64,000 bases of DNA from Acidobacteriaceae bacterium dw_441 (GTDB lineage Bacteria > Acidobacteriota > Terriglobia > Terriglobales > Acidobacteriaceae). Of the stretch, positions 29,299-37,849 are shown piece after piece. Positions within the stretch are counted from its first letter, which is position 1; each line of letters starts with the position of its first letter. The notes under the pieces were generated by a model, which did not search any database, had not been told where the DNA came from, and saw only the letters and a list, made by a program, of their open reading frames with translations. The stretch covers positions 372,001 to 436,000 of the forward strand of contig JAAVVA010000001.1 of NCBI GenBank assembly GCA_018449715.1. Direction: 5' to 3'. Both the position numbers and the translations under genes were made by a program.

Positions 29299-29444
29299 TG
29301 CGTGCTGTCATAATTTTGGAAATTTTCAGACCTCTCCTCCTCGGTGCGAAGAGGGGGAAGGGTTCATGCGTGACATATTTTAGTCAGGCTTTGGATGGAA
29401 ATTGAGGGGCTAGATCGATATCTACCTGATCGTAAATGGGTTAG

Positions 29445-29824
29445 ATAGTGGACGCGGAAGGAATCGAACCTTCAACCTGTTGATGAGAGTCGAAGGCGCA
29501 TGTAACCCTATTCCGCATTAGCTCGTTTGGCGAGAAAACTCTCCTTATAGGCATTGTTCCGAGTCGCAGAACGCAAGGCCGATCCAAGATACGGCCGACG
29601 GAGCGTTGCAACCGCACGGGCTGTTCCCCGTTACGACTTGGACCGAGTCGTTCTGCTAATGCAGGTCCAATTCCGAGGCTATCTTTAGATAGTTTTCGAT
29701 ATAAGACTTGTTTAGTCTGATATCCTTTCCAGAAAGAGAATGGTCCCCGCGGCTGACTTTTGGCGAAGCTCCGCGAGGACCCATAACACGACAGCACTTA
29801 GGCCGACGCGCATGTGTCCACTAT
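29445..29824 (-). ncRNA. Candidate structured RNA with tRNA-like 3' end (tmRNA-like topology, unassigned)
   Basis: This 572-bp gap (29299-29870) has no credible gene but many helices, best read on the minus strand. Ends pair as AUAGUGGAC (29824-29816) with GUCCACUAU (29453-29445). A perfect T arm lies at 29473-29457 (GAAGG, loop TTCGATT, CCTTC). Just before it CUCAUCAAC (29487-29479) pairs with GUUAUGGG (29787-29780), one bulge. An 11-bp stem joins 29781-29771 to 29752-29742. An H-type pseudoknot combines 29669-29664 with 29644-29639 and 29651-29646 with 29638-29633. Further hairpins lie at 29724-29698, 29692-29679 and 29631-29616. Several pairs are G-U on this strand but A-C mismatches on the other. 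It resembles tmRNA in size and layout but lacks the conserved UUCGAC near the 5' end, a tag frame and CCA. Confidence 0.45.
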
Positions 29825-29870
29825 AGACGCAGCGGCGCGCCATTTGGTCTGTCCTTTGGAAAGGTCACCG

Positions 29871-32800
29871 ATGAAATCGCGCACCTGGTTTGTGTCTGCT
29901 GCCTGCTTCTTCTTCTCATCCCTTCTCTCAGCCCAGAATGCCCAGGTCTCTGGCATCGTGCGCGACTCGCAGCACGCCTCCGTCCCCCGGGCAACCGTGG
30001 AAGTTCTGAACACTGACACGCAGCAGAAGCTTGAGGTCCAGACCAATGACGACGGCATCTACTCGTTGCCCGCCCTCCCTGCTGGTCACTACCGCATGAC
30101 TGTGCGTGCCCCCGGCTTCGCCGAACAGGTGCTCAACGACGTCAACCTCGCCGTCTCCGCAAAGGCCTCGCTCGATATTCAACTCAAAGTCGGCAGTGAC
30201 AGCCAGACCATCGCCGTTGACGCGAGTGGCACCGAGATCAACACTATCGACGGCTCCGTCTCTACCGTCATCGACCGCAAGTTCGTCGAGAACATGCCGC
30301 TCAACGGCCGCTCTTTCCAGTCCCTGCTCACGCTCATCCCCGGCGTCACTACCGTTCCTTCCTCCGGCTCCGGAACCAGTGGACAGATTGCCGTCAATGG
30401 CATGCGCACCGAATCTAACTACTTTATGGTTGACGGCGTCAGCGCAAACAGCGGTGTCAACAATGCTTCTCCAGGCCGTGGTGGCGGCTACTCCGGATCG
30501 CTTCCATCCAGCACTGTTCTCGGCACTACCCAGAGCCTCATCTCCATCGACGCCCTCGAAGAGTTCCGTGGAACGACCTCGACCTACTCTGCGGAGTATG
30601 GCCGCGTCCCCGGCGGACAGTTCAACTTCCGAACCCGCTCCGGCGCCAGCGCTTTCCACGGCACTCTCTATGAATACTTCCGCAATGATGCCCTCGACGC
30701 TAACAGCTACTTCAACAAGCGCAATAACCTTCCTCGCGCCAAAATGCGCCAGAATGACTTCGGTGGCACTTTCAGCGGTCCCGTCTACATCCCAGGCCTC
30801 TACCCCCAGCGCGACCGTACGTTCTTCTTCTTTTCCTACGAAGGTCTTCGTCTCCGTACTCCTCAGGAAGCCTCCACTACCTACGTTCCCTCCAGCGCAC
30901 TCATCAGCGCTGCCCCCGCTGTTCTGCAGCCCATCCTCTCTGCCTTCCCCAAACCCAAATCCAACTCAGTCGACGTAGGTAACGGGCTTTACTCCTACGT
31001 GGAGAGCTACTCGCAGCCCAGCACGATCAATGCCAGCAGTATCCGCATCGACCATACCCTCACCGACCGCTGGCGTATCTTCGGGCGCTTTGGCTATACC
31101 CCTTCCTCGCAGATCACCCGCTACAGCGGCGACCTCGCACAGGTCAATACCTCTGACATTAACGGCAAAACCCTTACCCTCGGCAGCACCAATATATTCA
31201 GTTCGCGTATCACCAACGAAGCGCGCTTCAACATTAGTTGGAACGATCAAATTGGCCGCTCCTTCATGGACAACTTCGGCGGGGCCACTCCTCTCACCAT
31301 CACCGATCTCGACGGGCTCAGCGCCGCCGACTGGGCCCTCTTCGCCTACCGCCCCGGCGTCTCAGCAGGTTTCTGGTTCAACCCTCAAAACAATCTCCAG
31401 AAGCAGTACAACGTTGTCGACACCCTCACGTGGACCCTTGGTCGCCACTCCCTCAAGTTCGGTGTCGACTGGCGCATGGTCCGCACCGACTCCACGCTGC
31501 CGGGCTTCTACGAGTCCCCCTTCTATATCACCGGGTCCGCCTACACCGGCACTGCCTACGAACAGCTCATGGCCAACACCCCGGGCCTCTTCACCCTCTA
31601 CCGCTCCAAGGGGGCCATGAATCCCGTCTACAAGAACCTCTCGCTCTTCGTGCAGGACGAGTGGAAGTTCTCGCCGCGCCTCAGCCTCTCCGCTGGCCTC
31701 CGCTGGGATGTCAACCCAGCTCCCCGTGATGCCAAAGGCAATCAGCCGTATACCGTCGACCAGCTCACCGACCTAGCCACAACCAAACTTGCACCGGCGG
31801 GCAGCGACCTCTGGAAGACCACGTACAACAACTTTGCCCCCCGCTTTGGATTCGCCTATCAGGCCAGCCAGACGCCTGGTCACGAAACTACCTTCCGCGG
31901 CGGTGCGGGTCTCTTCTTTGACTCCAGCAGCGTCCAGGCATCCGAAGGCTACTGGTACGGCATCGGCATCACCGGCACCCTCAACATGGCCTACCAGCCC
32001 TTTCCCGTAAGCGCAGCAACCCTTGCCGCCACACCAGAGCCCTCCACCGTCGTTACCGCGGCCTCCAATGCTCAGGTCTTTGCCTTCGATCCCAACCTCA
32101 AGCTCCCCTATGCCATCCAGTGGAACGGCAGTGTCGAGCAGGGGCTCGGCCAGAACCAGTACTTCACCCTCGCCTACGTCGGCTCCATTGGCGACCGCCT
32201 GCTGCTCGCCCGCCAGTACAACCCCAACCGCTTCGGCAACCCTCTCTTTCCCACTGCAACGGCGCTTTACCTCTATGCCACGATCAACGGCTCCAGCAGC
32301 ATCTACCACTCACTTCAGGCCCAGTACCGTCGCAACCTCTGGCACGGCCTGCAAATGCTCACCAGCTACACCTGGTCGCACACCATTGACGACTCGACCA
32401 GCAACTTCACCCTTAGCTCGCTTCTGCGCGCCAACTCCAACTACGATATTCGCCACAACTTCCAGGCGGCTATCACCTACAGCCTGCCTACTACCTATAA
32501 CAGCCGTCTTGCACGCGCGACGCTGGGCGGATGGGCCTTTGACTCCCGCGTCTCCGCTCGTTCCTCCCTCCCGGTCGACGTACTCACTCGCACGGATGTA
32601 GCTCCCTCCGGAGCAAGCTACTCCTACCACCCCAATCTCACCGGACAGCCGCTCTACGTTAGCGATCCCAGCGCCCCTGGTGGCCGCGCCATCAACATCA
32701 ACGCCTTTGCCGCAGCTCCCACAGGTGTCGAGGGAAATGCGGGACGCAACGCCGCTCGTGGCTTTGCGTCCTACCAGTGGGATACTGCCTTCCGGCGCGA

Positions 32801-33026
32801 CTTCGGCATCACGGAGCGCTTCCGAATCACCTTCCGTGCCGAAGCCTTCAACGTTCTCAACAAGGCTAACTTCGGCAACATAAACTCCAGCATCCAGACC
32901 AACACTGTCGCGCAGCCCTTCGGCTGGGCCAACAACACTCAGGCCTCGCAGCTCGGCGGACTCAACGGCCTCTATCAGACCGGCGGCCCCCGCTCTCTCC
33001 AGACGGCCCTGAAGGTGACTTTCTGA
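29871..33026 (+). CDS. TonB-dependent receptor, probable siderophore/iron type
   Basis: An outer-membrane receptor of 1051 residues from ATG 29871 (GGAAAGG six bases upstream; signal TWFVSAACFFFSSLLSAQ). It has a carboxypeptidase-regulatory-like domain (VSGIVRDSQHASVPRATV), a plug (KFVENMPLNGRSFQSLL) and a barrel ending SLQTALKVTF. Unlike the other receptors here its stop overlaps the start of a PepSY membrane protein (TGATG), the usual layout of ferric-chelate uptake pairs, so an iron chelate is the likely ligand. Codon third positions are strongly C-biased relative to the flanking genes, a possible sign of separate origin. Confidence 0.94.
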   Translation: MKSRTWFVSAACFFFSSLLSAQNAQVSGIVRDSQHASVPRATVEVLNTDTQQKLEVQTNDDGIYSLPALPAGHYRMTVRAPGFAEQVLNDVNLAVSAKASLDIQLKVGSDSQTIAVDASGTEINTIDGSVSTVIDRKFVENMPLNGRSFQSLLTLIPGVTTVPSSGSGTSGQIAVNGMRTESNYFMVDGVSANSGVNNASPGRGGGYSGSLPSSTVLGTTQSLISIDALEEFRGTTSTYSAEYGRVPGGQFNFRTRSGASAFHGTLYEYFRNDALDANSYFNKRNNLPRAKMRQNDFGGTFSGPVYIPGLYPQRDRTFFFFSYEGLRLRTPQEASTTYVPSSALISAAPAVLQPILSAFPKPKSNSVDVGNGLYSYVESYSQPSTINASSIRIDHTLTDRWRIFGRFGYTPSSQITRYSGDLAQVNTSDINGKTLTLGSTNIFSSRITNEARFNISWNDQIGRSFMDNFGGATPLTITDLDGLSAADWALFAYRPGVSAGFWFNPQNNLQKQYNVVDTLTWTLGRHSLKFGVDWRMVRTDSTLPGFYESPFYITGSAYTGTAYEQLMANTPGLFTLYRSKGAMNPVYKNLSLFVQDEWKFSPRLSLSAGLRWDVNPAPRDAKGNQPYTVDQLTDLATTKLAPAGSDLWKTTYNNFAPRFGFAYQASQTPGHETTFRGGAGLFFDSSSVQASEGYWYGIGITGTLNMAYQPFPVSAATLAATPEPSTVVTAASNAQVFAFDPNLKLPYAIQWNGSVEQGLGQNQYFTLAYVGSIGDRLLLARQYNPNRFGNPLFPTATALYLYATINGSSSIYHSLQAQYRRNLWHGLQMLTSYTWSHTIDDSTSNFTLSSLLRANSNYDIRHNFQAAITYSLPTTYNSRLARATLGGWAFDSRVSARSSLPVDVLTRTDVAPSGASYSYHPNLTGQPLYVSDPSAPGGRAININAFAAAPTGVEGNAGRNAARGFASYQWDTAFRRDFGITERFRITFRAEAFNVLNKANFGNINSSIQTNTVAQPFGWANNTQASQLGGLNGLYQTGGPRSLQTALKVTF

Positions 33027-34324
33027 TGGCCGCCACCCCTATCGTCGATCCCCCTGCTTCTTCTTTACGGAAGAAGCAGGGTTTCTTCCGCCGCTTTCTC
33101 GAAAGACCGCAACAGCTATGGCTGCGTAAGGTTTTTTTCCAGATACACCTTTGGGCCGGTATCCTGCTCGCCCTCTATGTCATTGCCATCGGTATCAGCG
33201 GCTCCATTCTTGTTTTTAAAGAAGAGCTCATGCCCAAACCGCATGTCTCCATCGGCAAGCTCGATTACAACGCCTGTACCGCCGCACAGATCAACCGTGC
33301 AATAGACCTCGCCAACACCGCCATTCCCGGAATGAAGGCTTTCCTCGCCTCCTGCCCCACACCCGCTAATGGTCTCTTCACTATCACCGTCCGCACCGAG
33401 CCCAAGCACTCTCCCGGAGGTCGCGGACAGCAGTTGCGTGGCACCGCTGAACCCCAAGGTCCCCGGCAGAAGCTCGCGCAGCGCACCGTCTACGTCCACC
33501 CTCAGACCTGGCAGGTCGTTGGCACCGCCGATAGAGAAGCCTCATGGCTCGAGACCGTCGAGCAGTTCCACGTCAACCTCCTCCTCGGCCGCAACGGACG
33601 TCTCTGGAACGGCATCGGTGCTTCCATCCTCCTGCTCCTCGCTTTCACGGGCATTGTCCTCTGGTGGCCAGGCATCCGCAACTGGACCCGCGGCCTCAAA
33701 GTAGATTTCCGCAAAAGCTGGAAGCGCATCAACTGGGACCTTCACAGCGTTATGGGTTTCTGGACTCTCTTCTTCACCCTCACTTGGGCGCTCACCGGCA
33801 TGTACTTCACTTGGCCGAAGCTCTTCACAACGCCCATCACGAAGTTCACCCACATCACCACCGCCAGTTATCCCGGTCCCCAGATGCGCGAGGCAGCCAA
33901 ACGCCCGCCGATCCAAGATGCACCTCTGAATGTGACTGCCATGATCGAAGAAGCCCAGCGTCAGTCCCCCAGGGGCCATCTGGAAGGCGTCTTCTACGGC
34001 ACCGGGCCACGACCCATCTTCACCATCTACATGGCCAAGGGAGTCATGGGGGACTACTCCAACGCAGACTTCGTCTACTTCGACCAGCGCAGCAACACCT
34101 GCCTCTACGCCTGGCATCGCGGAGACAACCACACGCTTGGCGACTGGCTTATCTGGCTCATTGCACCGCTGCACTTTGGCACTACATGGGGTCAGGCCGC
34201 GAAGGTATTATGGGCGATGCTCGGTCTGGTGCTACCTGCACTTACCGTCACTGGGCTCATGATGTATTGGAACCGCTGGCTCAGCAAACGATGGACCAAA
34301 ACGTTATTCGCGAAAAGCCGGTAG
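33026..34324 (+). CDS. PepSY-associated TM helix protein (probable ferric-siderophore reductase)
   Basis: A 432-residue inner-membrane protein with an early membrane segment (IHLWAGILLALYVIAIGISGSILVF), a periplasmic PepSY-like domain, further membrane segments (GASILLLLAFTGIVLWWPGI, FWTLFFTLTWALTGMYF) and a C-terminal pair ending VTGLMMYWNRW. Conserved His residues in FQIHLWAG, EQFHVNLLLG, DLHSVMGFW and PLHFGTTWG could bind haem, as in PepSY_TM reductases. It probably reduces imported ferric chelates in the periplasm. Its ATG shares one base with the receptor stop, so the two are translationally coupled. Confidence 0.9.
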   Translation: MAATPIVDPPASSLRKKQGFFRRFLERPQQLWLRKVFFQIHLWAGILLALYVIAIGISGSILVFKEELMPKPHVSIGKLDYNACTAAQINRAIDLANTAIPGMKAFLASCPTPANGLFTITVRTEPKHSPGGRGQQLRGTAEPQGPRQKLAQRTVYVHPQTWQVVGTADREASWLETVEQFHVNLLLGRNGRLWNGIGASILLLLAFTGIVLWWPGIRNWTRGLKVDFRKSWKRINWDLHSVMGFWTLFFTLTWALTGMYFTWPKLFTTPITKFTHITTASYPGPQMREAAKRPPIQDAPLNVTAMIEEAQRQSPRGHLEGVFYGTGPRPIFTIYMAKGVMGDYSNADFVYFDQRSNTCLYAWHRGDNHTLGDWLIWLIAPLHFGTTWGQAAKVLWAMLGLVLPALTVTGLMMYWNRWLSKRWTKTLFAKSR

Positions 34325-36331: not shown

Positions 36332-37849
36332 TCAACACGAGGGAGCGCGATCTGGAGATTGATGACGACCTGATGATGGTGCGGGGGAGGCACGAGATCA
36401 AGATCGGAGCGCAGGCGCTCGGAGCTTTCATTCACAACTACAATCCCCAATACCTTCAATGGAGCCTATGTCTTCGGTGGTGGAACGGCGCCGGAACTCG
36501 ATGCGAACGGTATCCCGACAGGCGGAACCACAACGATCACGCCACTGGAACAATATCGTCGTGCGCTATTAGGGCTTCCTGGAGGAAATCCCACCACATA
36601 TCAACTGACTACAGGTAATCCTGTCGTTCCGTACACCCAGTGGAGGTTAGGAATCTTCCTCGAAGACACGATCAAGCTGCAGCCTCGGCTAACGGTGACT
36701 GCTGGCCTTCGCTACAGCTTCCAGACAGCTCCAAGTACCTTTCTTAACTTCGGGCCGAGGTTGGGACTGGCCTGGTCTCCAGACAAGAAGTCGAGTTGGA
36801 CACTCCATGCCCGAGCTGGCATCTTCAATGTCCATCTCGATACGACTGGCGCAGATCAGATATATCGGTTGAACGGAATGCGGCAGCAACAGACGACAGT
36901 CTACTCTCCGAGCTACGCCCATCCGCTTACTCCTGTCGCGGGCTCCGTAGAGGTTGGTACACGCTGGCAGTTTCCGAGCAGCTTTGCGCAGATTCCGGTG
37001 GGAGTGTTTGCTGTGGGAGTGGAGCGCGATATGGGCCATCACTGGAAGCCCTCCGTATGGTTTACCTGGTGTGAGGCATGGGGAGATCCAAGGACACTGA
37101 ACATTAACTCTCCAATTGTTAATGCCAGTATCGGTACTTCTCCCGATCCGATTGCCGCCTTGCAGGCTCCCCGTCCTGGCGAACCCAATATCAACGTTCT
37201 TGAGTATCAGAACTCTGCGCACAATCGTGGGAGCGTATTCTGGGCAGGCATCGAGCAGAAGAGCTATAAGCACTGGACGCTTAACCTGGGGATGTGGAAT
37301 GTGAACTTTCGCACAGATGGAGTCACGCCTCAGTCCAGCTATACCGATCGAGGAGAGGCCGCGCGCCCGGACTGGCAGTCCAAGGGAGCACTTATAGAAA
37401 ATGATCTCAAATTCCCCTTCAAGCTCATCCTATCCACCCAAGCCTATTGGCATTATGGCAGGCCTTACAATCTGACCACAGGAACCGATGCCAACGGAGA
37501 CGGTATCTTCAATGACCGTCCATCCTTCGCTTCCGCTCCCGGCGCTGGAACCTACGCAACTCCATTCGGCTTGCTTACAGTCAACACCGTCAACGGAAAT
37601 GTGCCCAGAAACTTCGGAACGATGCCGGTCATCGTTCACATGTACTCCAACCTGAGCAGGGAGTTCTCGCTTGGGGGCAAAGACAAAGACCACTTACGCA
37701 CCCTGATCCTCAACGCTCGCGCCGTCAACCTTTTGAACCATACGAATGTAACGGCTGTAGGAACAGTGGTCTCGTCGTCCAGCCTCGGGCAAGCCTTGTC
37801 TTCTGAAGCTGCTCGACGAGTAGAGCTGGGAATGAGATTGTCATTTTGA
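36332..37849 (+). pseudogene. C-terminal barrel fragment of a second TonB-dependent receptor, frameshifted
   Basis: The barrel half of a receptor, starting without signal, regulatory domain or plug at about 36332 (codons reading LNTRERDLEIDDDLM). A single extra base, in a run of four C at 36445-36448, shifts the frame; after the shift the sequence continues with TFNGAYVFGGGTAPELDANG and runs unbroken from there to the stop at 37849 (VELGMRLSF). The long final frame from about 36450 is well preserved, so decay is recent. It abuts the inverted fragment on its left, showing a rearrangement junction. Confidence 0.85.

Follow-up and report, generated by a model that had tools for sequence, protein, structure and literature searches.

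What is encoded in an intergenic gap that carries no supported gene, folds strongly on one strand and ends in the T arm of a tRNA? The gap occupies positions 29445-29824 of a 64,000-nucleotide (nt) stretch from Acidobacteriaceae bacterium dw_441 (contig JAAVVA010000001.1, positions 372,001 to 436,000; hereafter the window), and an earlier interpretation made from its letters alone (the sequence-only reading) had taken the minus strand for one structured RNA of about 380 nt resembling transfer-messenger RNA (tmRNA). We find two unrelated neighbours on the minus strand of the gap, namely a duplicate of the 3' portion of tRNA-Lys and a structured RNA element, roughly 80 bases long, that is conserved. 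The latter (29739-29817) is a member of a family of structured RNAs that is common to many Acidobacteria and has no Rfam match. We consider it probable, at roughly 60%, that this element is a cis-antisense small RNA lying within the leader of an operon for a TonB-type receptor and a PepSY_TM protein, and that it restrains this operon.

Several features put forward in the sequence-only reading are present in the gap. The minus strand folds with a z-score of -5.35, which 0/100 shuffles equal (plus strand, -2.82 and 1/100), the 9-bp terminal complementarity between 29816-29824 and 29445-29453 was found again upon rechecking, and the T arm has the loop TTCGATT. This strong fold, together with the T arm and terminal pairing, is what speaks for a single 380-nt divergent tmRNA-like RNA, or for a tRNA-Lys split by an intron. 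However, when the loci collected for comparison were searched by BLASTN (E<=0.01, window copies set aside), only 29438-29497 (the tRNA-Lys piece) and approximately 29710-29840 (the RNA and an adjoining dyad) had matches, whereas the middle of the gap, 29510-29710, had none. In another genome (G051), whose receptor ortholog is 71% identical, both the RNA and the dyad are preserved upstream of the receptor with no tRNA piece in the stretch read, which argues that the tRNA piece is foreign to the RNA. The T arm derives from the duplicated tRNA-Lys half, and the 5' strand of the acceptor-like pairing overlaps the position of the -10 box of the family (TATAGT, 29820-29825). A search of the window against Rfam 15 found no family at gathering score, and the three matches listed for the gap were no better than E 4.9, the T arm itself being a weak tRNA match (E 5.9). 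The tmRNA model (RF00023) had no gathering-score match in the window and none in the gap at E<=10, and ARAGORN reported 0 tRNA and 0 tmRNA in the window. Elsewhere the host genome encodes a normal tmRNA (G000:C1:234407-234760, 167.4 bits, tag AEPQFALAA), and it has a normal tRNA-Lys as well. A single tmRNA-like RNA is made very unlikely by these results, and an interrupted tRNA or group I/II intron by the absence of any Rfam match in the gap, such that we give either reading next to no chance. What stands of the proposed unassigned RNA of a new family is its strand and its first ~80 nt, and not the remainder of the gap.

The tRNA-like 3' end is a truncated copy of tRNA-Lys(CTT) at 29438-29497 on the minus strand, which retains the T arm and an altered anticodon loop and lies outside the RNA. 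It aligns at 92% identity with G000:C1:437085-437145, a segment made up of the 3' half of the intact host gene (G000:C1:437093-437168) and a few bases downstream of it. The intact gene lies on the same strand some 35.6 kb away. The cloverleaf is incomplete, as the 3' half alone aligns, and a similar partial copy without the 5' half is found in another genome of the genus (G033:C6:50224-50293). The geometry would fit a genomic island at tRNA-Lys, but none of the 21 PF00589 integrase matches in the genome falls within C1:401-437 kb (this search was confined to the PF00589 type), and Pfam gave no match for the two open reading frames (ORFs) examined next to the tRNA, and so we rejected this candidate. 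We treat the tRNA-Lys piece as a remnant, and the locus illustrates that a structured RNA and a duplicated half of a tRNA, when adjacent, can imitate tmRNA.

The structured element begins with a 5' hairpin, CGUCGGCC-UAAGU-GCUGUCG (29789-29808), which is aligned in the match to our covariance model of the family, R1 (54.5 bits, E 4.1e-11; the window copy lies outside the training set). This is followed by a main hairpin at 29742-29782, the long stem of the sequence-only reading, whose 11-12 bp enclose the loop AGCUUCGCCAAAAGUCAG; the hairpin is terminator-like, with a U-rich 3' flank that extends to 29731. The RNA is predicted to start near 29813, and the predicted -10 box of its gene, TATAGT, was recognized by eye on the minus strand at the position where other family members have TATACT or TATAAT. 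An H-type pseudoknot had been proposed here as well, and its two strands, GGUUGUC and GACAGCC, do pair in 226/252 cells of our main family alignment. However, this helix competes with the 5' hairpin and the main stem, and GAC is lost in most of the distant-family copies seen; we therefore dropped the pseudoknot and make no claim for it.

A DNA search of 150 relatives returned matches to the 5' region of the gap beside those to tRNA-Lys, and the family members thus aligned share TATACT, approximately 25 nt further on CGTCAGCCTTCGGGTTGTCGATCTC, and then a hairpin with the loop GCTTCGCCAAAAGAC. The host genome contains this core pattern 10 times and the backwards control 0 times, and the pattern is present in 17/62 genomes of the genus, with 1 control match overall. 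A scan of contigs gave at least 113 stretches; among the matches listed, many of those outside Acidobacteria lack the GAC that follows the core and look like chance occurrences in coding sequence. Model R1 finds 9 matches in the host genome and is matched in 20/62 genomes of the genus, 59/399 of the class (30/135 genera) and 11/396 of the phylum, the 3 phylum genomes from outside the class giving weak matches (31-35 bits). When compared to Rfam, the element had no gathering-score match in 20 loci, where a single unrelated tRNA was reported (L054), nor in 7 further loci. Four exact-core copies of the host genome are found within ~13 kb (G000:C1:1577202-1590310). At three loci of other genomes (L235, L236 and L237, from G013, G052 and G060), weak R1 matches of 32 bits have a different loop, CTCCGCCAAGAGA, after TTATAATGCAG, and these elements are possibly a sister RNA family.

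The copies, of which 97 pass a looser filter and 94 have the exact core, were assigned to two classes by regular expression, with three copies moved by eye. Class 1 is defined by the presence of the 5' hairpin. We aligned 36 of 49 class 1 sequences, picked by eye (alignment A1, from which R1 was built), and found 96.9% of cells paired and 68 cells with changes on both sides of a pair, as compared to 18.1 (standard deviation 3.4) after shuffling, a count reached in 0/500 shuffles. All of these double changes fall in the main helix, where 10/12 pairs are altered on both sides. The distant families alone (alignment A3, with 24 matches drawn from 21 loci and biased towards the structure by having been fitted to R1) gave 57 double-change cells versus 13.7 (standard deviation 3.7; 0/500), with 12/12 main-helix pairs altered on both sides.

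The same helix speaks to the strand. G-U pairs outnumber A-C cells in the main helix by 65:8 in A1 and 30:4 in A3, which upholds the earlier argument from G-U pairs for a minus-strand RNA. Across class 1 the sense hairpin is more stable than its antisense in 37/45 copies and the G-U:A-C ratio is 102:15 (102:23 in the 48 copies before three were moved); in class 2, which comprises 49/94 exact-core copies, the sense is more stable in only 11/49 and the ratio is 33:74 (33:66 before the move), a difference in strand bias with a Fisher value of 1.3e-10. Given this G-U excess and the stability of the sense hairpin, we read class 1 in the sense of the motif; the window copy, which the 5' hairpin and the -10 box place in class 1, is accordingly read on the minus strand. 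The bias favours an RNA over a DNA transposon end or miniature inverted-repeat transposable element. Class 2 elements appear to be transcribed in the direction opposite to the motif. At L136, L094, L140, L163, L191, L209 and L070, class 2 elements are located 37-68 nt before genes for ~207-aa proteins that, judging from their N-termini and cysteine counts, read like ribosomal protein S4 with 0-1 cysteine (a single distant member was compared to Pfam).

On the opposite strand, 54 bases from the RNA, lies a TonB-type outer-membrane receptor gene (29871-33026, plus strand; Pfam CarboxypepD_reg, Plug and OMP_b-brl_4), whose start was read from the sequence, with a Shine-Dalgarno motif at 29858-29864. 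It is followed in the same predicted operon by a PepSY_TM gene (33026-34324, plus strand; Pfam 6e-55). A similar arrangement recurs across the family. Among 63 class 1 regular-expression matches, a set in which the window is counted and one match (L229 +709) is apparently false, 48 have an opposite-strand ORF of at least 100 aa. A crude calling of starts placed 26/63 at 45-61 nt from the RNA and found none in 7/63. Pfam searches of 37 of these neighbours, the window's included and 11 omitted by choice, gave CarboxypepD_reg in 16, Plug in 15, PepSY_TM in 13 and Sigma70_r2 in 2, as raw counts without a random-gene baseline; CarboxypepD_reg is here the N-terminal domain of TonB receptors, and its count presumably overlaps that of Plug. 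Another copy in the host genome (G000:C1:1518832-1518909) sits between an Rrf2 gene and a flavodoxin-like gene, the latter read by eye from its protein. These types of neighbouring genes suggest iron as the signal. In addition, class 1 copies at L136, L193 and L207 are found 43-58 nt past the end of a gene from a cluster represented by an aconitase match (neighbour clusters were named from one representative each). Further along the window, the ORF at 36695-37849 has as its sole Pfam match the last part of OMP_b-brl_4 and is possibly a receptor remnant.

Beyond the 3' end of the RNA lies the dyad ATATCAGACTAAACAAGTCTTATAT (29699-29723, given in minus-strand reading), a predicted operator. Dyads occur within 200 nt beyond the RNA in 33/45 class 1 and 32/49 class 2 copies, as compared to 0 upstream and, on average, 0.65 (class 1) and 0.8 (class 2) in shuffles. 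A predicted receptor promoter spans the dyad (29696-29724, plus strand), with TCGATA as -35 and GATATC as -10 separated by 17 nt; across class 1, a promoter signal with this spacer on the dyad, directed towards the receptor, averages 7.24/12 promoter matches versus a mean of 3.41 (standard deviation 0.96) over all offsets, and class 2 shows a weaker signal of 5.42. The consensus for IscR type 1 sites, as it is given in PMC3899308, is ATA-N3-GACT-N5-AGTC-N3-TAT, overlapping a promoter. The family dyad resembles such a site in its geometry and in its overlap with the predicted promoter, and the window dyad fits the consensus at 18/25 positions. An Rrf2/IscR-type protein is a candidate for the cognate repressor. 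The host genome has six Rrf2 genes. The orthologous locus in G051 keeps not only the dyad and the RNA but also the same variant loop (AAAAGTC), with a compensatory change from G-C to A-U in the stem, which argues that the variant loop marks a stable lineage and not decay.

We propose that the RNA would start just past its -10 box, fold into the 5' hairpin and the terminator-like main hairpin, and stop before the dyad. The receptor promoter, predicted to overlap the dyad, would drive transcription across the entire RNA on the antisense strand and produce a leader of ~140 nt. While the candidate Rrf2/IscR-type repressor occupies the dyad, few receptor transcripts would be made, and the antisense RNA may pair with these from its loop GCUUCGCCAAAAGNC, removing or blocking them. 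Under starvation, presumably for iron, the promoter would open, the mRNA would exceed the RNA and the restraint would be lifted. The duplex predicted between the window RNA and its own opposite strand is complete, as for any cis-antisense RNA, at -177.9 kcal/mol.

Several findings weigh against this proposal. The window copy has no clear -35, and the hexamers of its receptor promoter are weak. At several distant-family loci (such as L258, L262 and L263) no dyad is visible by eye beyond the RNA, and the leader may therefore not overlap the RNA at loci of this type; opposite-strand starts were called at positions other than 45-61 nt in 30/63 matches. Under strict filters R1 has no match in 42/62 genomes of the genus and 340/399 of the class, and so the RNA is dispensable or has been lost in most genomes. 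The 5' hairpin, although paired in 97.6% of A1 cells, has zero pairs altered on both sides and is thus unproven by covariation. Lastly, a purely cis action has no need for one loop that is identical at many loci.

This shared loop, along with the class 2 leaders, suggests pairing in trans as well. The RNA may mainly be a trans-acting small RNA, RyhB-like in its many copies, that pairs with the class 2 leaders of other genes through its invariant loop and its CGAUCUC linker, a possibility that we regard as real but doubtful. The second set of exact-core copies is antisense-stable, as would be expected of leaders with GUCUUUUGGCGAAGC...GAGAUCG, and several of its elements precede S4-like genes at 37-68 nt. 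Predicted duplexes between class 1 and class 2 average -58.7 kcal/mol versus -36.6 when the leaders are shuffled (400 pairs, 20 x 20 taken from 44 x 44), with overlapping ranges (weakest real -36.7, strongest shuffled -51.5). However, the search that found class 2 applied one exact core to both strands, which partly builds the complementarity into the sampling. Nine distant-family genomes gave 24 loop matches, and among the 23/24 listed those that resemble the element are class 1 by eye. The variant loop of the window matches nowhere else in its genome, leaving this copy without an evident trans target. A broader and equally tentative idea is that a class-wide RNA network might use one invariant loop in both polarities, with antisense RNAs at TonB, PepSY and sigma loci and complementary hairpin leaders elsewhere; some 10 loci per genome, counted in this host, might share one pairing code atop an Rrf2-type iron or Fe-S regulon, from which variant-loop copies such as the window's would be insulated for cis action. 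It is improbable, in our estimation, that the element is instead a cis-acting leader or attenuator, an aptamer with a terminator, for downstream genes on its own strand. Its terminator-like hairpin and highly conserved loop would suit this role, as would a cluster of nine AraC-like neighbours (representative Pfam-matched), 7 of which lie downstream on the same strand at gaps of -39 to 169 nt, but the remaining large clusters of neighbours lie mostly on the opposite strand, as does the next long gene downstream in the window.

Among the top literature matches on RNAs of Acidobacteria and on antisense RNAs at TonB receptors, no such family is evident from titles and abstract openings, and the main texts of two large papers on non-coding RNAs (PMC11109978, PMC8632094) contain zero mentions of the relevant taxa or genes by term search. 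RNA candidates from Acidobacteria or soil named in PMC2864571 include Acido-1 and Acido-Lenti-1, which are numbered in Rfam and did not match the element, and Solibacter-1 and Soil-1, which are known to us by table name, have no Rfam entry in that source and may be the same family (PMC2864571).

If the antisense proposal is true, the family would represent a regulatory RNA that acts on uptake systems and is conserved in a major soil phylum, with concrete loci for the joint study of antisense control and an IscR-like operator. RyhB and PrrF are trans-encoded, Fur-controlled small RNAs of the iron regulon with trans targets, whereas the gene for the present RNA lies opposite the predicted leader of its neighbour. 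RNA-alpha of the Vibrio anguillarum plasmid pJM1 is described as antisense to the iron-uptake operon fatA-fatB (PMC7968456), much as the present RNA is predicted to be antisense to what is likely an iron-uptake operon. The comparison is one of description rather than sequence, and RNA-alpha differs in that it lies inside fatB, at a single plasmid locus, and is expressed as iron rises (PMC7968456). In Synechocystis, IsrR is reported as an antisense RNA against the iron-stress gene isiA, which is also repressed at its promoter, with linked degradation (PMC8635728). The window RNA would resemble IsrR as a predicted antisense RNA against a gene with predicted promoter repression and a probable link to iron, and differs from it in lying within a predicted leader and in belonging to a family that recurs at many loci.
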